Virus record (IMG/VR): IMGVR_UViG_3300036835_000416
Location: 1-24,203 of that record
Origin: a virus
DNA length: 24,203 bases
Direction: 5' to 3' (one strand)
Position numbers and translations under genes: made by a program. The notes beneath the pieces are model-generated. The model saw only the letters and a list, made by a program, of their open reading frames with translations. It made no database searches and was not told the DNA's origin. This document shows, one piece after another, positions 1,000 to 19,954 of this stretch. Every line of letters starts with the position of its first letter. Within the stretch, counting starts at the first letter, position 1.

Positions 1000-1042
1000 G
1001 AGGGGTCCTTCCCTGTGCTAGAGCACAGCCAGGCCCCTCGTG
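997..1042 (-). promoter_or_regulatory. Two-tier hairpin over the capsid gene start
   Basis: CACGAGGGG at 997-1005 is the exact inverted complement of CCCCTCGTG at 1034-1042. Inside it, CTGTGCT (1013-1019) pairs with AGCACAG (1022-1028). In the leftward mRNA the capsid GTG start lies in the outer stem and the GGAAGGA ribosome binding site in the internal loop. The structure fills most of the 54-bp gap between scaffold and capsid genes and has no U-tract. It may set capsid translation relative to scaffold, or act as an RNA-processing site; this is inference. Confidence 0.6.
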
Positions 1043-5314: not shown

Positions 5315-7044
5315 TCGAAGCCCCACACCCGGCCAGCATGCTTGCCGCGGTCCTCGTTCTGCGCCTTCCAGGCGAGGTAGAGCCGGCGCACCATCCGGGC
5401 GCCGATCACGCACACGCCGGCGTCGATCTTCTTCGAGCTGGTCCGCGACTCCTTGCTGACGGAGACGCCCCACTTGTTCGGCGCGCGCCGCATGTTGACG
5501 ACGTGCCGCGAGGTCCGCGAGTCGCCGTCCTGCGTGAACTTGCGGTCCTCGATCTCAGCCAGGGTGAGCTCAGCGGCTTTCGTGAAGTCGTGGATGTGGT
5601 TACCCGACCTCATGTCCCAGGCGATCGGCTGCGGCTCGTTGCCGCCTGGCACCGCCCAGATCTTCAGCCTGTCCTGGTATCTCTTCGGCCACTCGATACG
5701 GGTAAACGACTCCCATTCGCGGACATCCCCGAAGAAGGCACACACGTTCCATTTCCTGAACATGAAATCGACAACTGCGTCAACCTCCTCGACCGGGACC
5801 GGCTGTGCCGGGGAGTATCTGGTCGCCTGTACCGGCTCCCAGACGTCAATGGTGAAAACGTGCCCGGTCTCTACATGGCACCCGATCAGGGCGGTGGCAT
5901 CCTGAGTCCGGGAGCCATCGAAGAACGCCACGATCTCATCCCCCACCTTGACGATGCTTTCGCGGCGGTCGGCCAGAAGCGCCCACTCCTGCTGGGTCGT
6001 CCATGCTCTCTGGTCAGATTCCGGCCAGTTAAGATAGAAGCGCTTAGCCATCTCGGGACGGGTGCGCAAATTAAGAATTTTCCCTTTGATATTACGCTGG
6101 TCTATCCAGAAACAATCTCCGTAAACGAACTCAATCGCCCGTTCAAGGCTGTCCTCAATATCTAGTTTAGTTCCCGGGGGAGCCAGGCGCGCATCGTAAA
6201 GAATTTTGTTTTCCGAGATCGTCCGGCCTTCTTCCTGGGCAACCCAGGCGTCATAATCTTTCTCGGCTACGGAGTCGATACCGGGTTCCCAGGCGTTGCA
6301 GGTGGCGATAGCCCGCGAGCCACTCTTGCCGAGGTTACGGTCGATTACCTCGGCCAGCAGCGGGCCGCCGTTGGAAGGCACCCAGTGCTCCGGCTCGTCG
6401 AGAACCGCGGCAGTGGTCTCAGCGCCCTCAGCTGCGGTGGCCGAAGAGGTGATGTTCTCCAGCTGGCCGCCGCCCGGGGTGTAGATGACGGTCTTGCCCG
6501 GGTCGAGCCCGTACTCCTGCACGACCTTGGACTTCTTGCCAGTCATCGCCCTGACCTGGCGCATCGTGTTGGCAGTCTGGCTCTCGCTGGTTGCCGCGAT
6601 CTGCACCAGCGGCATCATCACCGGGCGCCCGAGCACCCCTCCGAGCTCGTCAGGAACGCCAGGATCGCGGATCAGCTGTCCCTGGTCGTCCAGGGCAGGC
6701 CGGACCGGCCCGCAGAGCTCCAGGATCGACCAGGCCGCCGCGAAGGGGGACTTGCCGCTACCCTTGGCCAGCCTGCGGACGCCGTAGTCGTACTCCCACC
6801 GCGCCTCAGGCGTCAGCGAGTACCACCAGAGCAGGAACCTGACCTGGCTTTCCGTGCTCTGCCAGCGCTGGCCCGCCCGTGGGCCGTTGGCATGCCGGAG
6901 GTAGGTCGTCATCCACCGGATACATCCCCAGCCCAGCGTGAGCGCCGGGAGACCCTGCGGGAGGGTTACCAGGCGGTCCTGCGGCGCGGGCAGGTCCCGG
7001 CCGGGCTTGCGGATGTCAGGAGGGGCGCTCACCGCTTCCGCCAC
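5311..7044 (-). CDS. terL: Terminase large subunit
   Basis: 577 residues, the ATP-driven packaging motor and headful or cos nuclease. Walker A is AKGSGKSP at 93-100, Walker B is AAVLDEPEH at 212-220 with the catalytic Glu after Asp215, and the coupling motif is ATCNA at 247-251. The C-terminal RNase H-like nuclease shows AFFDGSRTQDATALIG (Asp376), FFGDVREW (Asp440) and SKKIDAGVCVIGARMV (Asp541) as likely metal ligands. The start is GTG at 7044, overlapping the small subunit by 29 bp; a GTG at codon 5 is an alternative. The portal gene follows directly. A stretch around 6060-6260 is visibly more AT-rich than the rest of the gene. Confidence 0.95.
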   Translation of the reverse strand: MAEAVSAPPDIRKPGRDLPAPQDRLVTLPQGLPALTLGWGCIRWMTTYLRHANGPRAGQRWQSTESQVRFLLWWYSLTPEARWEYDYGVRRLAKGSGKSPFAAAWSILELCGPVRPALDDQGQLIRDPGVPDELGGVLGRPVMMPLVQIAATSESQTANTMRQVRAMTGKKSKVVQEYGLDPGKTVIYTPGGGQLENITSSATAAEGAETTAAVLDEPEHWVPSNGGPLLAEVIDRNLGKSGSRAIATCNAWEPGIDSVAEKDYDAWVAQEEGRTISENKILYDARLAPPGTKLDIEDSLERAIEFVYGDCFWIDQRNIKGKILNLRTRPEMAKRFYLNWPESDQRAWTTQQEWALLADRRESIVKVGDEIVAFFDGSRTQDATALIGCHVETGHVFTIDVWEPVQATRYSPAQPVPVEEVDAVVDFMFRKWNVCAFFGDVREWESFTRIEWPKRYQDRLKIWAVPGGNEPQPIAWDMRSGNHIHDFTKAAELTLAEIEDRKFTQDGDSRTSRHVVNMRRAPNKWGVSVSKESRTSSKKIDAGVCVIGARMVRRLYLAWKAQNEDRGKHAGRVWGFD

Positions 7045-11370: not shown

Positions 11371-12028
11371 TGGCGTACTCCAGGACCGGCTCGGGCTCAT
11401 CGTCCACGATGCCGAGTTCTCGCTTCACCCGCACGCGAAGTGCGGCGTCCTCTTCCCGCTTGATACCGAACCGGGCGAGGATCTGGCGCTGCGAGTAGGG
11501 GTTCCCGGCCGCCCAGGTGTCCCTGAGGGCACGGTACGCGGCCTCCTGAGCGTCCTGGGCAACTCGCTCGGCGACTGGGCTGACCTCAGCCTTTACGTCT
11601 TCCTTCGCCTTACGCCGGTCCCGGATGTACCACATCAGGCCCTCGACGACAGCGACGAACGACAGGCCGGTGATGACCGAGAGTGTCATGCCCGCAGCCC
11701 GGTGAGCCACACCGTCCGCCGCGTTGGCGACCAGCGTGACGGCAACGCCGACCCAGAGCATCGCGCGGACCCAGAGCGGCACTTCGCGCCCTCTGCGCGA
11801 GCAGTGCAGCATCATGAGCGAGACCGCGAGGATCTCACCGTCGATAGACAATGGCAGGATGCGCGACTCCAGCTCTGTTTGCCCATACCGGAGCGCCAGA
11901 TTATAGATGTGCGAGTAACTTCCTACCGCTGCGAACGCCGCAACAGTCATAACGACTGCTATAACACCCAGGAAGTTAAGGGCGTCTGCTCCAGCGTCCG
12001 CACTCTGCTCAATGCGGAATCTGCTCAT
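11345..12028 (-). CDS. DUF2637 membrane protein
   Basis: 227 residues. Four hydrophobic segments at about 17-37, 58-78, 85-105 and 115-135 include the DUF2637 hallmarks LPLSIDGEILAVSLMM and TLVANAADGVAHRAAG. A charged cytoplasmic tail follows, with SQRQILARFGIKREEDAALR, a helix-turn-helix-like stretch. DUF2637 proteins are common in Streptomyces plasmids, AICEs and actinophages, frequently near FtsK/TraB, and have been linked to plasmid spread. ATG at 12028 has no ribosome binding site but lies six bases after a TACGAT -10, so the mRNA is probably leaderless. It is the first gene of the long leftward operon. Confidence 0.83.
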   Translation of the reverse strand: MSRFRIEQSADAGADALNFLGVIAVVMTVAAFAAVGSYSHIYNLALRYGQTELESRILPLSIDGEILAVSLMMLHCSRRGREVPLWVRAMLWVGVAVTLVANAADGVAHRAAGMTLSVITGLSFVAVVEGLMWYIRDRRKAKEDVKAEVSPVAERVAQDAQEAAYRALRDTWAAGNPYSQRQILARFGIKREEDAALRVRVKRELGIVDDEPEPVLEYANGDSPAGA

Positions 12029-12034
12029 AGGAGC

Positions 12035-12062
12035 ATCGTAGCGTTTTGCTGCGGCGATGCAA
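12035..12062 (-). promoter_or_regulatory. Leftward promoter, leaderless mRNA
   Basis: On the leftward strand TTGCAT (complement of 12057-12062), a 16-bp spacer and TACGAT (complement of 12035-12040) form a good actinobacterial vegetative promoter. The ATG of the DUF2637 gene starts six bases after the -10, where transcription should begin. A 14-bp operator-like motif lies nine bases upstream of the -35. Confidence 0.62.
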
Positions 12063-12070
12063 TCGAAGCT

Positions 12071-12084
12071 GTCACTGCCGTCAC
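12071..12084 (-). promoter_or_regulatory. 14-bp operator-like motif by the main leftward promoter
   Basis: GTCACTGCCGTCAC differs from the inverted 5261 and 8353 copies (GTCACTCCCGTCAC) at one base. It lies just upstream of the -35 of the DUF2637 promoter, a position suited to activation or repression. Confidence 0.5.
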
Positions 12085-12362
12085 CTGACCAGCGGCGATG
12101 CACGCGAAACAGGTGCAGCAGCCGGGCGCGGTCGCGGAGTCGTCGTCCTTCCGTCCTCCTCGCTCCGCTCGATCGTCCTCCGGACTCCTCCCCGCTCCTG
12201 GCCGGCGCCCTGCGGCCAGCCCCTCCCCCGCCCCAAACTGCTCAATTCTGGACATTTCTGCACATTTGAACCCTGGCGAACGGCGAGGCGCTATCACGCC
12301 CCGGCCGGCAGCCGGCCGGCGGGAGGGGTCACCCCCCCACCGTGGGCACTGATTTGCACAGG

Positions 12363-12542
12363 TCAGAGGACCCGCCCGGCCGCATCACCCACGTTGCCGC
12401 TCATGAGCTCCAGCCGATCCAGGCTCGCCGCGCGGCGCGAGCTCCGGCGCGCCCGATGGCACCTCCGGCAGGCAGCTCCCGTGCCGGCCAGGCATCCCTG
12501 TTGTGTGCCGCATGTTCCGCACGTTCCGGTCAGTACGCGCCA
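12363..12542 (-). pseudogene. Zinc-finger-like frame lacking a start codon
   Basis: An open leftward frame of 59 codons bounded by TGA at 12545-12543 and ending TGA at 12363. It reads LTGTCGTCGTQQGCLAG, then TGAACRRCHRARRSSRRAAS and LDRLELMSGNVGDAAGRVL. Two Cys pairs plus CRRCH and the amphipathic end look like a real small zinc-binding protein, but there is no ATG, GTG or TTG between the upstream stop and the first Cys pair; only CTG is available. It could be a decayed gene, use CTG, or need a frameshift from the overlapping frame that starts at ATG 12561. The CGTCGT part is encoded by the 9-bp repeat. Confidence 0.35.
12506..12532 (+). repeat. 9-bp tandem repeat, three units
   Basis: The units are TGCCGCATG, TTCCGCACG and TTCCGGTCA. 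On the other strand they read CGGAACGTG, CGGAACATG, CGGCACACA and belong to the dispersed CGGAAC family. Confidence 0.5.
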
Positions 12543-12612
12543 TCACGAAGGTCACCATCCTGGCCGTGACCTGCTGATCGTTACCGAATCGTGACAGATG
12601 AAAAGTGCAGTT

Positions 12613-12645
12613 TTGTGCATAGAACTACACTCGCGCGGGTACGCT
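12613..12645 (+). promoter_or_regulatory. Candidate rightward promoter
   Basis: TACGCT at 12640-12645 lies exactly six bases before the ATG at 12652, mirroring the leaderless layout of the DUF2637 promoter. A TTGTGC at 12613-12618 is too far (21 bp) for a standard -35, and TACACT at 12626-12631 is a second possible -10. The case is weaker than for the leftward promoter. Confidence 0.35.
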
Positions 12646-12651
12646 CAAGCC

Positions 12652-12753
12652 ATGAGCGCACGGACGGGCCGGACGGCAGGCGGAATGCTTGCGCGCGGGC
12701 ACATCCCGTTTCGGAGCGCACGGCGTGCGGTGACGCGCACGATTGACATCTGA
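12652..12753 (+). CDS. Possible 33-residue leader peptide
   Basis: The frame starts with ATG at 12652, has no ribosome binding site, lies six bases after a TACGCT -10-like box, and ends with TGA at 12753. It is Arg-rich (MSARTGRTAGGMLARGHIPF, then RSARRAVTRTIDI). If transcribed leaderless it would be the first open frame of the rightward block. No homology is recognised, and its short length makes it uncertain. Confidence 0.3.
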   Translation: MSARTGRTAGGMLARGHIPFRSARRAVTRTIDI

Positions 12754-12778
12754 AGATCATTTCGCGCGATGGATGCCC

Positions 12779-12803
12779 GCGCGCCGCGAGGTTCGCGGCG
12801 CGC
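12779..12803 (+). repeat. Perfect 11-bp GC hairpin in the first rightward leader
   Basis: GCGCGCCGCGA (12779-12789) and TCGCGGCGCGC (12793-12803) flank a three-base loop. It follows a GATGCCCGCGCGC element related to the GC-rich boxes upstream of other rightward genes. There is no T tract, so it is unlikely to be a terminator. Its geometry matches the hairpin at 23295-23319. Confidence 0.55.
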
Positions 12804-12866
12804 ATGCTGGCATGGCCATACGACCCTCGGAGGTCACGCGCGAGCGATGCGCGCCGTCTGGCGCGC

Positions 12867-12885
12867 ACGGCAGAGAACACGGAGA
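12867..12885 (+). promoter_or_regulatory. Start-associated leader, copy 1
   Basis: ACGGCAGAGAACACGGAGA ends with the GGAG ribosome binding site of the gene at 12890. It is a member of the two-part leader family; here two extra bases separate the parts. Confidence 0.65.
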
Positions 12886-12889
12886 CACC

Positions 12890-13096
12890 ATGTGCATTCA
12901 CAATCCCGGGATCGTCTGCGCCAACTGCCCGCCCGGGCAGGCAGTGAGACGGCTTGAAATCACTAACAAGATGCGGCGCCGCATGCCGTCCATTCCGCCA
13001 TCCTGCGAACGCTGTGGCGATGATCTGGACATACACGACTGGATCGAAATACGGATATCTGACGGCGCGATAGTCAATTGCGACAGAGCTACCTGA
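12890..13096 (+). CDS. Small cysteine-rich protein
   Basis: 68 residues. ATG at 12890 follows the start-associated leader with GGAG six bases away; the frame is open further upstream but the leader fixes the start. MCIHNPGIVCANCPPGQ gives Cys2, Cys10 and Cys13, and SCERCGDDLDIHDW gives Cys39 and Cys42, with Cys64 near the end. This suggests a zinc ribbon of two Cys pairs. The family is unknown. Small zinc-ribbon proteins in phage accessory regions often bind nucleic acid or host proteins, but nothing more specific can be claimed. Confidence 0.65.
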   Translation: MCIHNPGIVCANCPPGQAVRRLEITNKMRRRMPSIPPSCERCGDDLDIHDWIEIRISDGAIVNCDRAT

Positions 13097-13100
13097 AGCG

Positions 13101-13173
13101 CAGTACCCGCGCACGGGATGCCCGCGCGCGGCTCTGTACGGCAGGCAGAGACCGTACGGCAGAGAACGGAGAA
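13101..13173 (+). promoter_or_regulatory. Start-associated leader, copy 2, with GC-rich element
   Basis: CAGTACCCGCGCACGGG starts at 13101, then GATGCCCGCGCGCGGCTC, and the leader ACGGCAGAGAACGGAGAA is at 13156-13173. The GGAG lies eight bases before ATG 13180. A preceding CGGCAGGCAGAG at 13139-13150 looks like a partial duplicate of the first half of the leader. Confidence 0.65.
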
Positions 13174-13179
13174 AAGACT

Positions 13180-13545
13180 ATGCACCGCACGAAGAAGAAC
13201 GGACGCCACCGCCAGGCCAGGCGCATCACACGCCGCATGATCCTGGCCGGCGCGAGCCTGGCCACGATCGCCGCTAGCCTCATGCTGTGGGCGGCCCTCG
13301 CACAGGCCAGCACCCATCCGCTCCGGAACAATGGCTACCCGATCCCGGACCGCGCCGCGTGCGCACGGGAAGGCAACGCGCGCCCGATGCGCGTCCACGT
13401 GATCGGCAGCTCCGGCCTGACATGGCAGTACGTCACGGCCGGCGAGGCGCGGGAGCTGCGCATCTCCCCTTGCTCGATCGTCATCGTGGGTGAGCAGCAG
13501 AGTGTCGTCATGGCGCCCGGCGCGCGCATCGCGGCCAGGTCATGA
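13180..13545 (+). CDS. Predicted secreted protein with twin-Arg-like signal
   Basis: 121 residues. ATG at 13180 is set by the leader. A strongly basic N-terminus (RRITRR) precedes a hydrophobic core (MILAGASLATIAASLMLWAA) and an ALAQA-S signal-peptidase-like site near residue 43. RR followed by MIL recalls a Tat signal but the full S-R-R-x-F-L-K pattern is not present, so Sec export or a membrane anchor is equally possible. The mature part has NNGYPIPDRAACAREGNARP and GLTWQYVTAGEARELRISP with two Cys, perhaps a disulphide. The function is unknown. The stop overlaps the next ATG (ATGA). Confidence 0.68.
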   Translation: MHRTKKNGRHRQARRITRRMILAGASLATIAASLMLWAALAQASTHPLRNNGYPIPDRAACAREGNARPMRVHVIGSSGLTWQYVTAGEARELRISPCSIVIVGEQQSVVMAPGARIAARS

Positions 13546-13775
13546 TCGCAGCACTCACCATCTGGCAGGCACAGGGATTCACTCCCGGCCCGCTATTCCT
13601 CGCCATCTACTACCTGCGGCAGACCTGGGACGACCTTCCCGGGCCATGGCCGGTCAAGGTGGCGCTGTGCGCCATCTGCCTGGCTATTCCCGGGCCGCAG
13701 GATGAGCTGACACTGATAGCGCTCACGCGGCTCTGCCGCGCGTGGCGAGCGAGACAGGAAAGGAGAACGGCATGA
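13542..13775 (+). CDS. Small membrane-associated protein
   Basis: 77 residues, coupled to the preceding gene by an ATGA overlap and to the next by another. Hydrophobic stretches are FTPGPLFLAIYYLRQTW and WPVKVALCAICLAIPGP, with a basic tail (LTRLCRAWRARQERRTA). No family is recognised. With its neighbours on both sides it forms a tight trio of a secreted protein and two membrane-type proteins, perhaps acting together at the cell envelope. Confidence 0.6.
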   Translation: MIAALTIWQAQGFTPGPLFLAIYYLRQTWDDLPGPWPVKVALCAICLAIPGPQDELTLIALTRLCRAWRARQERRTA

Positions 13776-13846
13776 GGGGACGCGCCGCACTGTGGGCCGT
13801 CATCCTGGCCACGGTGATAACCGTGATCGCTTTCGCAGCGTTCTAG
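13772..13846 (+). CDS. 24-residue single-span membrane microprotein
   Basis: MRGRAALWAVILATVITVIA followed by FAAF and TAG. ATG at 13772 overlaps the previous stop (ATGA) and is preceded by AGGAGAACGG, a good ribosome binding site that matches the second half of the leader family. The peptide is a basic N-terminus plus one hydrophobic helix. The spacing, ribosome binding site and overlap support real translation despite its size. The role is unknown; small single-span phage peptides include holin-like and immunity peptides. Confidence 0.58.
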   Translation: MRGRAALWAVILATVITVIAFAAF

Positions 13847-13850
13847 TCGG

Positions 13851-13935
13851 CAGTACCCGCGCGCGTCTCGCACGTGCGCGGCTCCGCTCACTAGAGCGAA
13901 CCTCACGGCAGAGGACACCTAACAGGAACGGAGAA
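13851..13935 (+). promoter_or_regulatory. Start-associated leader, copy 3 (split), with GC-rich element
   Basis: CAGTACCCGCGCGCGTCTC begins at 13851 and TGCGCGGCTCC follows. The leader is split: ACGGCAGAGGACAC at 13905-13918, then AACGGAGAA ending at 13935. GGAG lies eight bases before the GTG start at 13942. Confidence 0.6.
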
Positions 13936-13941
13936 TGGCAC

Positions 13942-15006
13942 GTGATCACCTACAGCCATGCGAAAAGCATGATGGAAACCGCACGCAACGGACGGCGCAA
14001 GCTGGGGAACAATACCTATCTTGAAACCGTCTGGAACGGGAAAGCCAGCCCAGACTACGGTGTGCGCTATCACGCAACTATCGTCATCACGATCCATGAG
14101 GACGGAACGTTCACTCTCAACACGGGTGGATGGCACACGATCACGACAAAAGCGAGGCTCAACGATTACAGCCCCGCACGCGTTTACAGCGTTGACGGGA
14201 CGCTGTGCGTTGTCTCGTCCGATGACCCGCGCACGCCACCCAAGGTCAAGAAGTGCCGCGCGTGCGCAGGTTCCGGTAAGCAGACCTCGCACGCCTGGAC
14301 GGGATGGGAGGGTACCGTTCACCCGGCAACCGAGCATAATTGCTACCGCTGCGGAGGCTCCGGCCAGAATGACTACGGCAGCAAGCCGCGCCCGGTCATG
14401 TTCTATGACGGCATCAAGGTGGACGCGTGGGGACACGTGATCTCGCCAGACGCACAGCGAATCCATGAGACGGACGAGGAGCGGGAGGCGCGCGAGGCGC
14501 GCATCCTCCGGGAACGGCGTGCGGAGGATCTCGCACAGCGGCGCGTTTTCTTCCGTGAATACGGTCTCGCGCCGAAGCGTGGCAAAGTCGTCATGTTCAA
14601 GGCTGTAAATGACAGCCTCAATTCGCCGCACGGGATGCCCTATCCGATCGGCGAAACGGTGACCGCGAAAGACTGGTCCGCGCGCAGGGCATGCGGGCAA
14701 GGACTGCACTTCGGTCCTTCCGTGGCTGCCGCGCGCCGCTACGCGCCGGAGGCCACGCGGTTCCTCGCGTGCGAGATTGCCGTTAAGGGAATGGTGGTCC
14801 TTGACGACAAGATCAAAGTGAAGTCGGCGCGCGTCCTCTATGAAGTCGATACGGATGGCGCGCGGATTCCCGCGCACAGTGATTACCCGCATGAGCCAGG
14901 CAGGCTGTATGACTGCCCTGCCTGCGAGGCGCGCTGCTACTGCCGTCCGGATTTCACGGAATGTATTTACTCCGGAGAACACAACGGGACGGCAGATCAG
15001 TCCTAG
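13942..15006 (+). CDS. Multidomain unknown protein with DnaJ-like zinc module
   Basis: 354 residues starting at GTG 13942 (GGAG eight bases upstream). Three parts are visible. Residues 1-100 form a beta-rich domain (ATIVITIHEDGTFTLNTGGW). Residues 105-141 hold two DnaJ-like repeats, CRACAGSG and CYRCGGSG. Residues 200-310 form a domain with VVMFKAVNDSLNSP, CGQGLHFGPSVAAARRY and RFLACEIAVKGMVVLDDKIK, VKSARVLYEVD, resembling an uncharacterised phage domain of the DUF7666 kind (recalled, unverified). A second Cys cluster lies near the C-terminus (CPACEARCYCRPDFTEC). A charged helix at 175-200 links the parts. The function is unknown; nucleic-acid or protein binding is plausible. Confidence 0.7.
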   Translation: MITYSHAKSMMETARNGRRKLGNNTYLETVWNGKASPDYGVRYHATIVITIHEDGTFTLNTGGWHTITTKARLNDYSPARVYSVDGTLCVVSSDDPRTPPKVKKCRACAGSGKQTSHAWTGWEGTVHPATEHNCYRCGGSGQNDYGSKPRPVMFYDGIKVDAWGHVISPDAQRIHETDEEREAREARILRERRAEDLAQRRVFFREYGLAPKRGKVVMFKAVNDSLNSPHGMPYPIGETVTAKDWSARRACGQGLHFGPSVAAARRYAPEATRFLACEIAVKGMVVLDDKIKVKSARVLYEVDTDGARIPAHSDYPHEPGRLYDCPACEARCYCRPDFTECIYSGEHNGTADQS

Positions 15007-15010
15007 CCAG

Positions 15011-15120
15011 CAGTACCCGCGCGCGGCTCCCGTGGCGCCAGACGGCGCTGCGCGGCTCCGTGCGCGGCTCTGCCCGCTAGGCCGGACATCGGTAAGGCAG
15101 GCACGGCAGAGAACGGAGAA
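15011..15120 (+). promoter_or_regulatory. Start-associated leader, copy 4, with GC-rich elements
   Basis: CAGTACCCGCGCGCGGCTC at 15011-15029 is the clearest copy of the upstream element. TGCGCGGCTCC and TGCGCGGCTCT follow as further partial copies, and the leader ACGGCAGAGAACGGAGAA sits at 15103-15120, immediately before the ATG at 15124. Confidence 0.68.
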
Positions 15121-15123
15121 CGG

Positions 15124-15327
15124 ATGTACGCCATCACGGCGCAGGTGCTTACCTCGGAGACAGACAGGCACGGCATTGTCTGGCGCGGCTCGCGCCAGAT
15201 ACCCACGTTCTATCTGGACGAGAATGTCCAGGGAATCACGGACGAGTCGCACGCCGTTAAAATCGCGCGAGCGATCATTGATCCTCTGGGCACGCTGAAC
15301 GTCAGTATCTCAGCGGTAAAGCTCTAA
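15124..15327 (+). CDS. Small conserved-type phage protein
   Basis: 67 residues from ATG 15124, directly after leader copy 4. The sequence contains VWRGSRQIPTFYLDENVQGI, then HAVKIARAIIDPLGTLNVSI, ending SAVKL. The FYLDENVQGI...A...IA..I..P pattern is familiar from small unannotated proteins of actinobacterial phages and plasmids, but no function is known. It is probably a compact alpha/beta fold. Confidence 0.68.
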   Translation: MYAITAQVLTSETDRHGIVWRGSRQIPTFYLDENVQGITDESHAVKIARAIIDPLGTLNVSISAVKL

Positions 15328-15332
15328 TCCTC

Positions 15333-15356
15333 ACGGCAGAGAACGAAACGGAGAAC
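15333..15356 (+). promoter_or_regulatory. Start-associated leader, copy 5
   Basis: ACGGCAGAGAACG then AAACGGAGAACGG. It occupies almost the whole 32-bp gap between two genes and lacks the upstream GC-rich element, so the leader alone is the minimal unit. GGAG is six bases before ATG 15360. Confidence 0.65.
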
Positions 15357-15359
15357 GGA

Positions 15360-15965
15360 ATGAGTGCAATGTCAGAGCTGGACGTCATGCGCCAGCGTGC
15401 CGCAGAGTATGCGGCAGAACTTCAGAGGCTTAGTTACGACGTCCAGGTACTCCAGTGGGAGACGGCGCTGGACAATTATGAGCCAGTCGCACGGAGTCAC
15501 GCGCACGGATTCGCTGTGGAGTACAGCGGCACGTTGCACGATCCGGACACGGGCCGGACCGCAGAATACGCGACAGCAGGTATCACGATGTTCTGCGATG
15601 ATATGCAACTGCCACTAGGCAACGTGATTAACAACGGACCGCACGCTATCGCGCTAATGGATGACGGACTGGAGGTCCATCCATACTACTGTGCCGCGTG
15701 GCACCATGACGATTCGCATGTGATCTGGCACACATTCCCGGTAAACGGGATCAATGAAAAGACAGGGCAGTCCTACACAATGGATAACTGGATGCTAGGA
15801 CCGCGCCGCGCGTATCACTTCAAGGTAACCAGGCTGTATCTCCACAGCGGAAACGACTGGCGTCCGGAGGAGCCTGGGACGGAAGCACAAAAGTACGAAC
15901 GGAACGCGCGCGAACTGGACATCATCCGGCGTGCACGTTCCGGAGAATGGAAAGCATCCTCCTAA
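15360..15965 (+). CDS. Unknown protein of 201 residues
   Basis: ATG at 15360 follows leader copy 5. The N-terminal 35 residues form a predicted coiled coil (MRQRAAEYAAELQRLSYDVQ). The body is beta-rich with several His, Trp and Tyr: EYSGTLHDPDTGRTAEYATA, EVHPYYCAAWHHDDSHVIWH, TMDNWMLGPRRAYHFKVTRL. The C-terminal helix is charged. The HPYY...WHHDDSH cluster could bind a metal but no enzyme family is recognised. Codons are visibly less GC-rich than in the head genes, which suggests a different origin. Confidence 0.63.
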   Translation: MSAMSELDVMRQRAAEYAAELQRLSYDVQVLQWETALDNYEPVARSHAHGFAVEYSGTLHDPDTGRTAEYATAGITMFCDDMQLPLGNVINNGPHAIALMDDGLEVHPYYCAAWHHDDSHVIWHTFPVNGINEKTGQSYTMDNWMLGPRRAYHFKVTRLYLHSGNDWRPEEPGTEAQKYERNARELDIIRRARSGEWKASS

Positions 15966-15977
15966 CCATGACGCGAG

Positions 15978-16054
15978 TTTCGCGCGCGGCTCCGGCCGTG
16001 CGCGGCTCCCGTGCCATGGCACGGACGGAAAACGGCAGAGAACAGAACGGAGAA
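15978..16054 (+). promoter_or_regulatory. Start-associated leader, copy 6, with GC-rich element
   Basis: TTTCGCGCGCGGCTCC at about 15979, TGCGCGGCTCCC, then ACGGCAGAGAACAGAACGG at 16032-16050 continuing into AGAA. GGAG is eight bases before the ATG at 16061. The preceding gene ends at 15965. Confidence 0.65.
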
Positions 16055-16060
16055 AACAGA

Positions 16061-17272
16061 ATGGGGAACGAAGAGAAGATCTCCCCGGAGTTGGCCACTA
16101 TCTACGCGCAAGCGGTCGCCTCCGGCGGCCCTGGGCCGGAGGACGGCGCCACGGTGCTGGATGATGTGCGATCGTTCATCCGGCGATTCGCTGTCCTGCC
16201 CGGCCAGGCAGAGCTGGATATCGTGGCGCTGTGGGCAGTTCACACCCACGTTTACGAAGCGTTCTACATCACCCCGCGCCTGGCCGTGCTGGGGAGTGAC
16301 CCCGGGGTAGGCAAGACACGCGTGCTAGACCTGCTGGCCCTGCTGTGCGCCGGCGCGCGGCTGGAGCTGGACCCTACCGGGCCGGCACTTGCCGCGATGA
16401 TCGGCCAGCTGAAACCGACTCTTCTCATAGATGAGACGGATACGATTTTCGGCGCGCGCGGCAGCTCCTCGGCCAAACGGCAGCTGCGGGGAATCCTTAA
16501 CTCCGGGTATAAGGCCGGGGCCAAACTGACGCGGCGTAACAAAAACGATTTCGTGGAAGACATCGTTTTCTGTCCCGTCGCGTTCGCCGGCATCGGTAAC
16601 CTCCCCGACACGCTGATGTCGCGTTCATTCCAGATCCGCATGCGGCGCAGGCGTGCGGGCGAGGAAATAGAATCCTACTTCCCGCGGATGCACGGGCCAG
16701 TCGGCGCAAGCATCGGCGAGGCGGCAGGCCAGTGGGCGCGCACGAAGATTCTCGATCTGGCAACCGCCTGGCCGGCGATGCCGGAGGGGATCGAAGACCG
16801 GCAGGCAGAGATAGCCGAACCTCTGCTGGCACTCGCCGACGCGGCGGGAGGCCACTGGCCGGTCACGGCCAGGGATGCCTGCCGCGCGGTGCTGCTGCGG
16901 CAGACTGCCGAGCCGGCCGAACCGCCGGCAACGCGGCTGCTGGCCGGCATCGCCGCTGTGTGGCCTCTGGATGCCTCTGGCGCGCCGGACCGCAACATCA
17001 CCACAGCGGATCTCGTCTCGCGCCTCTGGAAGCTGGACGGGGCGCCGTGGGCGCACATGTGGGGAGACCGTGCGGCAGCACCGCGCGAGATCTCAGCCCT
17101 GCTGGCTGGCCGTGGCATCGCGCCGCGGAAAGTCCGGGTAGGTGACGCCACACTTCAGGGGTACCGCCTGGCCGACATCGCCAGGCACGTGCCCATCCCG
17201 CCGGCAGAGGTCCCCGATGATCTCTCCGGCGTTCCGGAGGTTCCGGACGTTCCGGAGGACAGCACTACCTAA
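16061..17272 (+). CDS. DUF3631-type AAA+ ATPase
   Basis: 403 residues. The start at 16061 is fixed by leader copy 6; an upstream in-frame ATG would read through the leader. Walker A is GSDPGVGKTRVLDLL (78-92), Walker B is PTLLIDETDTIF (119-130), and sensor/arginine-finger features are FAGIGNLPDTLMSRSF and QIRMRRRR (175-198). LRGILNSGYKAGA between them is a DUF3631 hallmark. DUF3631 ATPases occur in actinobacterial phages and integrative elements, often as helicase-like modules of primases; no primase domain is attached here. The C-terminal third is a winged-helix-like region ending in VPEVPDVPED, encoded by 9-bp repeats. A replication or defence-related motor role is inferred. Confidence 0.85.
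   Translation: MGNEEKISPELATIYAQAVASGGPGPEDGATVLDDVRSFIRRFAVLPGQAELDIVALWAVHTHVYEAFYITPRLAVLGSDPGVGKTRVLDLLALLCAGARLELDPTGPALAAMIGQLKPTLLIDETDTIFGARGSSSAKRQLRGILNSGYKAGAKLTRRNKNDFVEDIVFCPVAFAGIGNLPDTLMSRSFQIRMRRRRAGEEIESYFPRMHGPVGASIGEAAGQWARTKILDLATAWPAMPEGIEDRQAEIAEPLLALADAAGGHWPVTARDACRAVLLRQTAEPAEPPATRLLAGIAAVWPLDASGAPDRNITTADLVSRLWKLDGAPWAHMWGDRAAAPREISALLAGRGIAPRKVRVGDATLQGYRLADIARHVPIPPAEVPDDLSGVPEVPDVPEDSTT
17232..17258 (+). repeat. 9-bp tandem repeat at the end of the DUF3631 gene, three units
   Basis: TTCCGGAGG, TTCCGGACG and TTCCGGAGG, almost perfect. They encode the VPEVPDVPE tail. The opposite strand reads CGGAACGTC-like units matching the dispersed family. Confidence 0.6.
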
Positions 17273-17284
17273 CCCGCATGCGTC

Positions 17285-17323
17285 GGGCAGCTCTGCGGCT
17301 CTGTGAGCCTCCCAGAGCTGCCC
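17285..17323 (+). repeat. Extended hairpin between DUF3631 gene and next gene
   Basis: GGGCAGCTCTG (17285-17295) pairs with CAGAGCTGCCC (17313-17323); inside, GGCTC (17297-17301) pairs with GAGCC (17305-17309). There is no T tract, so it is not a standard terminator. A second palindrome, GGCCCGT-GA-ACGGGCC, follows at 17354-17369. They may stabilise or process the mRNA. Confidence 0.5.
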
Positions 17324-17374
17324 GGCCACGCGCGCTAGGCAGAGACGCGCGGCGGCCCGTGAACGGGCCGGAGG

Positions 17375-17391
17375 ACGGCAGAGAACGGAGA
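17375..17391 (+). promoter_or_regulatory. Start-associated leader, copy 7
   Basis: ACGGCAGAGAACGGAGA, with GGAG eight bases before the ATG at 17399. Identical to the core of copies 2 and 4. Confidence 0.65.
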
Positions 17392-17398
17392 TCAGGGC

Positions 17399-17992
17399 AT
17401 GGCTGACATCATCGAGAGCTGGGAGACCGAAGCGGACGGTATGCGCTACCGCGTGGCTCTCGTGCCCGACTACGAGTCCAGCCCAGACGATTACGACGGT
17501 TACCCGCACGGGACGCGCGAGGCGTTCCGGCGCGGCGAGTGGCAGTTCGTGGGTGTGATCGTGACCCCCATCCTGGACGGGCCAGCGGAGGGCATGGCCG
17601 GCGCCGGGCAGTTCTCCGGCGTGACCGATGCCTCACTATGGTCTGTGGAGTGGGGCACGATGCCCGGATGCGAGACCGATCATGGCGAGTGCAACGCTAC
17701 GGAGGACGTCGTTATCGACCGGGCCTTCATCAACCGCTACCCCGTGCCGGACCTCATAAGCGAGGTGCGCGGGCAGCTCCGGCAGCTCCGGGAGGCTCTG
17801 TCCGGCCTCGCGCTGGATGACTGCCCGGCCAGGCATCTCCGCACGGAGGGCATCCCCGAACCGTTCACAGTCCGCTGTGAACGCGCGGCAGGCCACGCGC
17901 CTCCGCATCGAGTGATGGAGTACGAGTGGGAGACGGCGCCGGACTGCGACGTCTGCCAGACCACGGCAGGTTGCAGGTGCAACGCAGACTGA
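17399..17992 (+). CDS. Unknown protein with C-terminal Cys cluster
   Basis: 197 residues from ATG 17399 after leader copy 7. The N-terminal half (YRVALVPDYESSPDDYDGYP, WQFVGVIVTPILDGPAEG, ASLWSVEWGT) resembles a beta-rich domain. Then MPGCETDHGECNATEDVVID, a helix ISEVRGQLRQLREALSGLAL, and a C-terminal part CPARHL, VRCERAAGHAPPHRVMEYEW, CDVCQTTAGCRCNAD with at least six Cys, likely metal-binding. No family is recognised. It is the last gene of the rightward block; a strong terminator follows 18 bp after the stop. Confidence 0.65.
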   Translation: MADIIESWETEADGMRYRVALVPDYESSPDDYDGYPHGTREAFRRGEWQFVGVIVTPILDGPAEGMAGAGQFSGVTDASLWSVEWGTMPGCETDHGECNATEDVVIDRAFINRYPVPDLISEVRGQLRQLREALSGLALDDCPARHLRTEGIPEPFTVRCERAAGHAPPHRVMEYEWETAPDCDVCQTTAGCRCNAD

Positions 17993-18010
17993 CACGCACG
18001 TGTCACTAGA

Positions 18011-18055
18011 GGCCGGCCGGAGGCTCGCGCCATGCGCCTCCGGGCCGGCCTTTTT
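18011..18055 (+). terminator. Strong intrinsic terminator of the rightward block
   Basis: GGCCGGCCGGAGGC (18011-18024) pairs with GCCTCCGGGCCGGCC (18036-18050) with a single bulged base and an 11-nt loop, followed directly by TTTTTG. This is the best terminator in the window and closes the rightward transcription unit. Confidence 0.85.
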
Positions 18056-18062
18056 GCTGCCC

Positions 18063-18102
18063 GCTGGCAGCTCCTCGCGCCCGTGCTGGCAGCTCCTCGC
18101 GC
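18063..18102 (+). repeat. 18-bp direct repeat pair
   Basis: GCTGGCAGCTCCTCGCGC occurs at 18063-18080 and 18085-18102 (period 22), followed by a degenerate third copy (CTCCGGCAGCTCTGGCG). It lies directly after the terminator. Confidence 0.65.
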
Positions 18103-18153
18103 GCCTCCGGCAGCTCTGGCGTCCACCATGGCCAGCGCACGGAATGTCCGGTT

Positions 18154-18225
18154 TGCCGGGAATGCCAGTTCTGCCGGGAATGCCGGGAATGCCGGGAAGG
18201 CGAGGAATGCCCGGAATACGGGCTT
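18154..18225 (+). repeat. Eight-unit 9-bp tandem array
   Basis: Eight consecutive 9-mers: four perfect TGCCGGGAA units plus TGCCAGTTC, GGCGAGGAA, TGCCCGGAA and TACGGGCTT. Further degenerate units flank it on both sides. It is non-coding and the longest member of the 9-bp period family in the window. It could be an iteron array or protein-binding array. Confidence 0.7.
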
Positions 18226-18462
18226 TGTGTACCTTAGTATTCACATGGGAAGTATGCGCCGTCTGCGAGCTATGTGCAGGTTTGTGCACATCTGAGCACT
18301 TTGTCGGATATGTCCGGCAAGTGCCGGTTTGAGCGCTTTGCCCGGAATGCCCGGGTCAGCCCCGCAAGCACCGGCAATAGAGGTTAACGCGCGCCAGCGG
18401 CGCGCCGGCACGCTGGCCCGTCTGAGCCGCAGCGCTGAGGTCGGCGCAATCCGTTGCACTTA

Positions 18463-18493
18463 ATTTCCTACCACAAGCTAGGAATCTGGCCGC
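18463..18493 (+). repeat. Paired motif, copy 1
   Basis: ATTTCCTAC, CACAAGCTAGG, then AATCTGGCCGC. The TTCCTA and TAGGAA ends form an imperfect palindrome. The second copy is 129 bp downstream. Probably a protein-binding or recombination site; this is inference. Confidence 0.5.
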
Positions 18494-18591
18494 AGCCCTG
18501 ATCGTAACAGCGCACCAGACAACGATCCACCGAAATGCACCATAATGGCCCCTTGCGCGCTTACGATGCTGGGCTTATCCGGAGCCAGTGT

Positions 18592-18621
18592 ATTTCCTAC
18601 AACGAACTAGGACATGGCCGC
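18592..18621 (+). repeat. Paired motif, copy 2
   Basis: ATTTCCTAC, AACGAACTAGG, then ACATGGCCGC; most positions match copy 1, with one base fewer near the right end. Confidence 0.5.
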
Positions 18622-18703
18622 CGCGGGCCAGCTCGCCGCGAGTGCTGGAAGTGCCCCCGTAAGGGGCGTTTCGGCGTTTTCCAGAAATCAATTACAGATC
18701 GCC

Positions 18704-18733
18704 AAAAATCTCACCGGAGGAGGGTAACCCTCC
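18704..18733 (+). repeat. AAAATCTCACCGG hairpin unit, copy 1
   Basis: AAAAATCTCACCGG is followed by GGAGGG (18719-18724), TAA, CCCTCC (18728-18733). The same conserved lead-in and GGAGGG/CCCTCC stem recur at 18781. Confidence 0.5.
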
Positions 18734-18780
18734 CGTAAGGAGCAATCCAGCATTTCCCGGAAACTGATTTGGCGTTTCAG

Positions 18781-18823
18781 AAAATCTCACCGGCTGGAGG
18801 GTGCCCGGTCACCCTCCGGGCAC
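18781..18823 (+). repeat. AAAATCTCACCGG hairpin unit, copy 2, with alternative stems
   Basis: After the same lead-in, GGAGGGTG (18796-18803) can pair with CACCCTCC (18810-18817), or GTGCCCGG (18801-18808) with CCGGGCAC (18816-18823). The two stems are mutually exclusive, as in attenuators and riboswitches, though no downstream gene or T tract is evident. Confidence 0.5.
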
Positions 18824-18907
18824 ACAAAACCCGGCCCACTTCCCGTCCGGAAAGCTGCCGGGTCCTGTGCTGTAGCTCAATGGATGACGCCATGCTAACA
18901 CGCGAAA

Positions 18908-18935
18908 CCGGGCCGGTCCCGGAGGACCGGCCCGG
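18908..18935 (-). terminator. 12-bp hairpin, possible end of the lysis operon
   Basis: CCGGGCCGGTCC (18908-18919) pairs perfectly with GGACCGGCCCGG (18924-18935) across a CGGA loop. In the leftward direction only TTT follows, so termination would be weak. It lies about 100 bp past the stop of the endolysin gene. Confidence 0.4.
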
Positions 18936-18966
18936 CCGGCAGAGAACCAGCCGAACGGAGAGAACG
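18936..18966 (+). promoter_or_regulatory. Orphan start-associated leader, copy 8
   Basis: CCGGCAGAGAAC, CAGCCGA, ACGGAGAGAACGG. Both halves of the leader are present, including GGAG, but no ATG, GTG or TTG lies at a working distance. A GC hairpin (CGCGCGCG at 18987-18994 and 19000-19007) follows. It probably marks a gene lost at the end of the block. Confidence 0.5.
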
Positions 18967-19030
18967 GCTGACTCACACGAGGCTTTCGCGCGCGTTCCCC
19001 GCGCGCGGACCGCCACGCAGGTGCAGGGTA

Positions 19031-19954
19031 TCAGCCCGCGACCACGCAGCCAACGTCTCCCTCGCCGTCGTCCACGCGGTGCAGCACGATCGCATGGATG
19101 CCATCGGGGATGTCCTCGGTGTGCGCGCTGTCGTAGGTAAGCTTGACGTCGGCGGTCTTGCCGCCATTACGCAGGTCGATCCGCACCTCGGCGTTGTTAT
19201 TCGCGAACAGCCTGACCTTCGTCGCGCCGTTCGGAAGCGGGAAGGGCGTCGTCGCGCCAGCACCCTTATTGAGCAGCATGGAGTCCTCCTCGAAGATCAC
19301 AGCGGCCGGCCCGGCCGCGTGCCCGGCCACGAACGCCCGGAGCTCGGCCGCGCTCCCCCTGAACTGGTCGGCGTCCACCTGCTCGCCCGTGCTGGCCTGG
19401 CGGGTGATCCCGTTCTGCCAGATCAGCCAGTCCTTCCAGGCCGCAGGCTTCCACTGCGACGGTTCCGGAGGGACTGGCGAGGGCCAGGCCACCCAGAACG
19501 AGGGGAACTGCCGCGAGGTCTTCACGAGCTGGCTGCCAACCGACAGGTTCGAGTACACCGGGATCATCTCCGGCCGGTGCCCGGACAGCTTCGCGACCGC
19601 GGCGCAGAACGCCAGCGTCCCCTCGTCCAGGCCGGGGTGCTCTTCCTCGCTGTCGCAGACCAGCAGGTCGGCCGCCATCAGCCCGGCCGCCTTCACCTCA
19701 TGCACGAACGCCGCCGCCTGGCTCTCCGGGGACGGGCTTCCCGGCGTCAGCATCAGGTACCAGTACGCGCCGCGGACCAGTCCAGCCGCCCTGAGCTGCT
19801 GCCAGTCCCGGGCGAAGCTCCGGTCAACGCCCATCCCGGAGCTCCAGTCCGAGACGCGCACGATCCCGAAGGACAGCCCCGCCAGGGACGCCTTCGTCAC
19901 CGGCCGCTGGAAGGAGCTCCAGTCCCGGCCGCGGGCGCGCGGCGGCTTAGCCAT
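19031..19954 (-). CDS. Endolysin, GH25 lysozyme
   Basis: 307 residues. The N-terminal domain (to about 215) is glycoside hydrolase family 25, a muramidase that cuts peptidoglycan during lysis. GRDWSSFQ carries Asp11, FGIVRVSDWSSGMGVDRSFA follows, and LLVCDSEEEHPGLDEG (98-113) carries the D-x-E catalytic pair Asp101/Glu103. SFWVAWPSPVPP and DWLIWQNG...DADQFRG fit the last strands of the barrel. The C-terminal 80 residues (LPNGATKVRLFANNNAEVRI and onwards) form a separate beta domain, possibly wall-binding. No signal peptide is seen, so it needs a holin. ATG at 19954 overlaps the previous gene by eight bases (ATGGCTAA). It is the last gene of its operon. Confidence 0.9.
   Translation of the reverse strand: MAKPPRARGRDWSSFQRPVTKASLAGLSFGIVRVSDWSSGMGVDRSFARDWQQLRAAGLVRGAYWYLMLTPGSPSPESQAAAFVHEVKAAGLMAADLLVCDSEEEHPGLDEGTLAFCAAVAKLSGHRPEMIPVYSNLSVGSQLVKTSRQFPSFWVAWPSPVPPEPSQWKPAAWKDWLIWQNGITRQASTGEQVDADQFRGSAAELRAFVAGHAAGPAAVIFEEDSMLLNKGAGATTPFPLPNGATKVRLFANNNAEVRIDLRNGGKTADVKLTYDSAHTEDIPDGIHAIVLHRVDDGEGDVGCVVAG

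Follow-up and report, generated by a model that had tools for sequence, protein, structure and literature searches.

What are the short repeats that stand ahead of the rightward genes of an actinobacterial virus, and are they read as DNA or as RNA? The window, i.e. the whole stretch of DNA that was analysed, is the complete IMG/VR virus record IMGVR_UViG_3300036835_000416 (24,203 bases, 66% GC), and the virus apparently has no earlier description. The matches of its TerL and capsid proteins are mostly Actinobacteria phages, every one of them below 60% identity. On the left arm, a leftward block of terminase, portal, protease, scaffold and major capsid genes adjoins an FtsK-like gene, a NUMOD4/HNH endonuclease gene and a DUF2637 gene; on the right side, endolysin, HNH and primase genes also run leftward. 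The leftward arms enclose a single rightward operon at ~12.9-18.0 kb. Its nine genes, which include those for DUF7666 (13942) and DUF3631 (16061) proteins, are:

Start ATG 12890, + strand: 68 aa, Cys-rich
Start ATG 13180, + strand: 121 aa
Starts 13542 and 13772, + strand: two leaderless genes, each starting in an ATGA overlap with the preceding gene
Start GTG 13942, + strand: 354 aa, DUF7666
Start ATG 15124, + strand: 67 aa
Start ATG 15360, + strand: 201 aa
Start ATG 16061, + strand: 403 aa, DUF3631
Start ATG 17399, + strand: 197 aa

The repeated leader has two halves, an upstream box, ACGGCAGAGAAC (half 1), and a downstream element with ACGGAGA (half 2; half-2-anchored consensus GAACGGAGA). 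A preliminary description had listed eight copies on one strand, and all of them were found: between 12867 and 18936, ACGGCAGAGAAC occurs on the + strand six times exactly (12867, 13156, 15103, 15333, 16032 and 17375) and twice with one mismatch (13905 and 18936):

12867..12889, + strand: leader 1, half 1 at 12867-12878, ACGGAGA at 12879-12885; before ATG 12890
13156..13179, + strand: leader 2, AC common to both halves, half 2 at 13166; before ATG 13180
13905..13941, + strand: leader 3, ACGGCAGAGGAC, 11-nt spacer, half 2 at 13928; before GTG 13942
15103..15123, + strand: leader 4, AC common to both halves; before ATG 15124
15333..15359, + strand: leader 5, spacer GAA; before ATG 15360; 32-nt gap, too short for a hairpin
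16032..16060, + strand: leader 6, spacer AGA; before ATG 16061
17375..17398, + strand: leader 7, AC common to both halves; before ATG 17399
18936..18967, + strand: orphan leader 8, CCGGCAGAGAAC, 7-nt spacer, ACGGAGA at 18955; no rightward gene after it

With up to two mismatches, ACGGCAGAGAAC matched 13 times in the window versus 2.43 expected, a number reached in none of 100 shuffles. The pair, ACGGCAGAGAAC followed by ACGGAGA, was found eight times on the + strand, in none of 200 Markov-1 simulations and never on the - strand. The leftward genes indeed lack the leader. ACGGAGA itself occurs nine times on the + strand of the window, eight of them in leaders. An unbiased 9-mer count upstream of mechanically called starts returned the leader as the top motif; the same procedure, run as a positive control on Anaya, a cluster K phage, recovered its start-associated sequence (SAS).

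All seven non-overlapping rightward starts are preceded by a leader, and neither of the two coupled, ATGA-overlapped starts is; "nearly every rightward gene", as the preliminary description put it, thus comes to seven of nine, the exceptions being 13542 and 13772. The gaps ahead of leader-bearing genes measure 83, 95, 117, 32, 95 and 126 nt, to which the first gene of the operon is added. The distances from start codon to leader (23, 24, 37, 21, 27, 29 and 24 nt) include all three frames; as had been noticed earlier, the frame through the leader differs between genes, and we therefore conclude that the leader is not a peptide. The two halves are variably spaced, 10, 10, 10, 12, 15, 15, 19 and 23 nt from start to start, which corresponds to spacers of -2 (AC common to both halves, three copies) to +11 nt rather than the 0 to about 13 given before.

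Half 2 is the Shine-Dalgarno (SD) site, in an imperfect extended form, and all seven gene-linked leaders end, as proposed, in the ribosome binding site (RBS) of the next gene. Half 2 begins 11-14 nt ahead of the start codon, with GGAG at normal SD spacing, and its end lies 4-7 nt from the start codon in 7/7 genes. For the pairing analysis, the actinobacterial 16S tail CUCCUUUCU was taken from a Leifsonia rRNA gene, with an assumed mature end. Against this tail, AGAA-C-GGAG pairing is seen in four leaders and near variants of it elsewhere. The mispaired C (the C of AGAACGGAG, opposite U) is kept in 8/8 copies, and half 2 with this C pairs at about -9.3 kcal/mol, as compared with -13.4 for the perfect AGGAAAGGAGA of the coupled gene 13772. 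Since a weakening C is conserved throughout the leaders while a leaderless gene of the same operon has the perfect sequence, half 2 was not selected simply for SD strength.

Half 1 is a sharply bounded box of 12 positions, ten of them identical in 8/8 copies and two in 7/8, with flanks near background. It begins 21-37 nt before the start codon (21-29 nt in six of the seven genes, 37 nt in one), and its complementarity to 16S or 23S rRNA does not exceed that of shuffled motifs. No sigma70-like site was detected in 12000-19100, no element stands at a fixed distance upstream of half 1, and the half-to-half spacing has no helical period. The cluster A stoperator, which we take to be a 13-bp sequence, GGTGGMTGTCAAG, bound by the phage repressor, is not enriched in the window when searched with this consensus.

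These results bear on whether the leaders are DNA sites, bound by a repressor in the manner of stoperators or by a sigma factor or RNA polymerase specific to the phage. Repeated intergenic elements in one orientation along transcription, one of them an orphan without a gene, are consistent with such sites, and there are precedents in the cluster A stoperators and in the SigA promoters inside the extended start-associated sequences (ESAS) of Adephagia (PMC11373665). The spacing of the halves, however, varies by 13 nt, half 2 coincides with the SD, and coupled starts are skipped; the missing helical period and the missing fixed upstream element, as well as the negative searches for sigma70-like and stoperator sequences, also speak against a promoter and against a DNA operator of rigid geometry, and we regard a DNA-level role as quite unlikely. 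The preliminary description had left the choice between an RNA- and a DNA-binding regulator open. The spacing follows neither the helix nor a fixed promoter geometry. As a target, RNA agrees with the observations better than DNA does.

Hairpins lie before six of the eight leaders, 0-7 nt away or slightly overlapping, and their stems are unrelated in sequence; five of the six have tetraloops, and only the leaders at 15103 and 15333 have no adjacent hairpin. A further hairpin, at 17329, is included below for its loop:

12849..12866, + strand: hairpin GCGCGCC-gtct-GGCGCGC, directly adjoining leader 1
13136..13157, + strand: hairpin GTACGG-CAGGCAGAGA-CCGTAC, whose loop carries an additional GGCAGAGA; shares 2 nt with leader 2
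13885..13898, + strand: hairpin CGCTC-acta-GAGCG before leader 3
16009..16024, + strand: hairpin CCGTGC-catg-GCACGG before leader 6
17329..17351, + strand: hairpin CGCGCG-CTAGGCAGAGA-CGCGCG, whose loop carries an additional GGCAGAGA
17353..17370, + strand: hairpin CGGCCCG-tgaa-CGGGCCG before leader 7
18908..18935, + strand: 12-bp hairpin CCGGGCCGGTCC-cgga-GGACCGGCCCGG, directly adjoining the orphan leader and the strongest of the hairpins

The summed stem score of the leader-side hairpins was 121, versus 48 +- 19 in dinucleotide shuffles, and 0/300 shuffles scored as high. We grade this enrichment as moderate, because the hairpin definition was set after the sequences had been seen, the orphan copy is the largest contributor to the score, and coding tiles of the same genome also fold beyond their shuffles (mean z -0.94). 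Two sub-threshold Rfam matches around 18902-18937, at the strong orphan-side hairpin, were taken as chance. Half 2 of the orphan itself lies within the loop of CAGCCG-aacggagagaa-CGGCTG.

The core of half 1, GGCAGAGA, is present ten times on the + strand and never on the - strand. Seven of these copies are in leaders; of the three outside leaders, two are intergenic, and both occupy the loops of perfect 6-bp hairpins (13136 and 17329 in the list above) whose stems are different and whose loops are near-identical. Of all positions in the window, only 1.2% are the first base of an 8-mer that falls within a loop of this kind. The two cases are suggestive of single-stranded RNA as the recognised form, and they are our main reason to consider such recognition.

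A separate element is associated with stop codons. The preliminary description had placed a CAGTACCCGCGC-type element upstream of most leaders; the element exists, and its exact form is confined to three gaps, in each of which it begins exactly 4 nt past the stop codon of the preceding gene. The layout in these gaps is stop, 4 nt, CAGTACCCGCGC...GCGCGG and CTC, with interiors that differ but pair. GCGCGGCTC, the 3' arm or flank of this hairpin, is present in a fourth gap too:

13101..13134, + strand: stop-associated CAGTACCCGCGC hairpin (13107-13131) with CTC end, 4 nt after stop 13096
13851..13884, + strand: stop-associated CAGTACCCGCGC hairpin (13857-13881) with CTC end, 4 nt after stop 13846
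15011..15070, + strand: stop-associated CAGTACCCGCGC hairpin (15017-15067) with CTC end, 4 nt after stop 15006
15981..16004, + strand: related hairpin CGCGCGCGGC-tccg-GCCGTGCGCG with GCGCGGCTC as 3' flank, without CAGTA

Because of the fixed 4-nt offset, we assign CAGTACCCGCGC to the end of the upstream gene; as a leader component it was rejected, its position being set by the preceding stop codon.

Stop-side and start-side hairpins could flank an endonuclease site, so that cleavage would yield separate stable mRNAs, each bounded by hairpins at both ends and with the leader as the new 5' region. The constant offset of the stop-side hairpin and the direct contact of start-side hairpins with the leader would suit such processing; leader 5, however, stands hairpin-free in its 32-nt gap, and a nuclease that reads structure only would need no conserved half 1 sequence. 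We consider processing as the primary role improbable. The same two elements, one at the stop and one at the start, render each gene a cassette, and the preliminary description had proposed a homology track, in which short repeats at cassette borders allow genes to be gained and lost and the orphan at 18936 is the remnant of a lost gene. An identical 18-bp ACGGCAGAGAACGGAGAA at 13156 and 15103 and the repeat-mediated gene loss in cluster O phages (PMC4351075) agree with this. Homology-driven spread, however, would not be expected to conserve each half on its own while the spacers vary and the flanks are unrelated, and it leaves the exact placement ahead of start codons unexplained. As the whole explanation it is therefore highly improbable; as a by-product it is possible, since recombination and a function in translation are compatible and may coexist.

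Relatives of the leader were sought in several collections. The exact leader gave only single matches per stretch in IMG/VR pattern scans and only single matches among one genome per species of 84,980 species, in both cases about the chance number by our own estimate; two single matches turned up in a set of 395 genomes from the class of G005. None of these scans revealed another carrier of the exact leader. No IMG/VR relatives came up in protein searches with the DUF7666 gene, the genes at 15360 and 17399 and the FtsK-like gene, and actinobacterial DUF3631 relatives (about 29-42% identical) have no such leader upstream of their likely starts. A distantly related phage contig, IMGVR_UViG_3300036790_000049 (G001; 65,151 bases; identities of 65% for capsid, 59% for portal, 49% for DUF3631 and 45% for primase), contains CGGCAGA-N-CGGAGG exactly twice, each time directly before an ATG, with 0.04 expected per strand. 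Both copies are in the early region, upstream of DUF3631, and consist, as here, of CGGCAGA, an A-rich spacer and (A)CGGAGG before the ATG of two early genes. Unlike the present phage, G001 has two copies only; they are near-duplicates, probably of one duplication, and hence count as one independent case. Most other G001 genes have different recurring RBS strings, e.g. GAACAGGGAGG at about 6/92 starts.

Such favoured strings raise the question of whether the leader is simply an enhanced RBS, i.e. a purine-rich, weakly structured sequence that is used by the ribosome alone, was homogenised within one phage and involves no trans-acting factor. Half 2 as the SD and the A/G-rich composition of the leader within a 66% GC genome speak for this. 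An enhanced RBS does not, however, explain twelve fixed positions that include C's, a half 1 without above-shuffle 16S/23S complementarity, a conserved C that weakens the SD or GGCAGAGA in hairpin loops distant from any SD, and we think it unlikely.

The reading that we prefer, with about even confidence, is that the leader is a two-part mRNA translation-initiation module whose half 1 is read sequence-specifically by a putative factor. The module would be repeated ahead of each separately initiated gene of the one rightward operon. Half 2 would act as an imperfect extended SD, and half 1, at the upstream edge of the region that a 30S subunit would occupy, would be retained because a factor of the phage or the host recognises it sequence-specifically as single-stranded RNA and so co-regulates the genes of the operon; the inter-cistron hairpins would separate the leader region from the sequence before it and may indicate where processing occurs. 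We infer recognition as RNA, a trans-acting factor and translation as the controlled step from several observations: leaders at 7/7 non-overlapping and 0/2 coupled starts, half 2 at SD spacing with a conserved weakening C, the sharp bounds of half 1, the variable distance between the halves, hairpins of unrelated sequence, loop-borne GGCAGAGA copies and the G001 pair. The reading is weakened by the orphan, which keeps both halves and the strongest hairpin with no gene following, by the two hairpin-free leaders and the folding of coding tiles, and by the probable origin of the G001 copies in a single duplication.

A more specific version, which we offer tentatively and think unlikely, is that GGCAGAGA is the recognition element of a putative phage-encoded RNA-binding regulator and that the operon forms one translational regulon with docking or decoy loops. 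GGCAGAGA would then be single-stranded before each RBS and again in the hairpin loops upstream of two genes. If true, this would be a phage RNA regulon without a demonstrated counterpart among start-associated sequences.

Reports of start-associated sequences in several actinophage groups go back to 2011, and no function has been demonstrated for them. The present set of copies is unusually informative: two boxes, variable spacing, an SD mismatch, divergent hairpins and a loop-borne core jointly point to single-stranded RNA, and they allow direct tests beyond those possible with a single 13-bp motif. The preliminary description had named the SAS and ESAS of cluster K, defined in PMC3203893 (Pope 2011), as the closest parallel. 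SAS is a single 13-bp motif, GGGATAGGAGCCC, located 3-7 bp ahead of the start (PMC3203893), and the parallel holds for position, strand, gap preference and conservation beyond the SD. Both systems comprise many near-identical copies in one orientation, at the RBS of non-structural genes with wide upstream gaps, and are nearly absent elsewhere. Half 2 lies at the RBS, a few nt before the start, in 7/7 genes; the leader keeps to one orientation in a non-structural region with gaps mostly >50 bp; and the mispaired C and a half 1 without above-chance rRNA complementarity show conservation beyond the needs of 16S pairing. SAS differs in being one motif, whereas here there are two boxes of another sequence with a variable spacer and upstream RNA hairpins. 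Hairpins upstream of SAS were seen at 2/15 Anaya sites examined, both at background level. The SAS consensus GGGATAGGAGCCC had no match in the window at up to two mismatches and eight with three (11.1 expected), in line with the earlier statement that the sequences differ; membership in cluster K thus falls away.

In ESAS, a conserved 17-bp sequence forms an imperfect inverted repeat that contains a SigA-like promoter and for which pairing at the RNA level is improbable (PMC3203893, PMC11373665); later work interpreted ESAS as SigA promoters that carry inverted repeats (PMC11373665). As of 2025 the function of SAS and ESAS had not been settled (PMC12699233). The present leaders resemble ESAS in that many gaps hold a second element ahead of the start motif. 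ESAS has a conserved repeat and a promoter, whereas the stems here vary yet pair, and no promoter-bearing inverted repeat of the ESAS type was seen, with no sigma70-like site in 12000-19100.

Parallels exist outside cluster K as well: Microbacterium phages of clusters EC, EF and EG also bear start-associated repeats, of other sequences (PMC7302621). The EC repeat is an asymmetric 18-bp TAGaCTATaGGTgTaAgC that keeps to one orientation and precedes the RBS, at 21-30 bp from the start codon, which makes it the closest positional match to half 1 (21-29 nt in all but the 37-nt case). It differs in its sequence, and the passages of PMC7302621 consulted report no conserved second half. The same paper gives the EF motif (AnnaSerena; SAS/ESAS-like) as GGGAAAGGACCCC with GTAGAG upstream and the EG inverted repeat as GATCAACCNNGGTTGATC; both are repeated start-associated motifs particular to their phage group, like the leader, and differ from it in sequence. 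In the window, TAGaCTATaGGTgTaAgC had seven matches with three mismatches versus 6.5 expected, and GGGAAAGGACCCC had one match with two mismatches (0.68 expected), which is chance level. Since the K, EC, EF and stoperator consensus sequences are all unenriched, we place the leader outside the named families; judged by its sequence, it is a new representative of the known start-associated kind.

An CAGTACCCGCGC hairpin with CTC at its end was observed after stop codons in the rightward operon, at window positions 13101, 13851 and 15011. The offset from the stop codon to the hairpin was exactly 4 nt at three genes of the window. This stop-associated element may act as a 3'-end stabiliser or as a U-less terminator.

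A stretch of ca. 1 kb (window 17993-19030) contains no clear genes. Tandem-like GGAATGCCGG repeats lie inside it (18141-18221), and the stretch with these repeats may serve as an origin or as a control region. The same non-coding stretch holds two copies of another element, both with a short inverted repeat, TCCTA/TAGGA:
window 18463-18486, TTTCCTAC-N6-CTAGGA
window 18592-18613, second copy of the same element

A sequence at ca. 18869-18908, TGTAGCTCAATGGATGACGCCATGCTAACACG, is similar to the 5' half of a tRNA and is possibly a decayed tRNA; no tRNA was reported by ARAGORN in the window.

The related viral contig G001 repeatedly uses its own RBS strings, GAACAGGGAGG and CGGAGGTAGG; the former stands at ca. 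6 of the 92 starts called there. The same contig carries CTCATCGGCTATA as a tandem array at 5842-6012.

The start-associated sequence consensus of cluster EF Microbacterium phages (AnnaSerena; PMC7302621) matched the window once, which is chance level:
window 1002-1014, minus strand, AGGGAAGGACCCC, cluster EF consensus with two mismatches
The major capsid gene starts directly after this cluster EF-like sequence.
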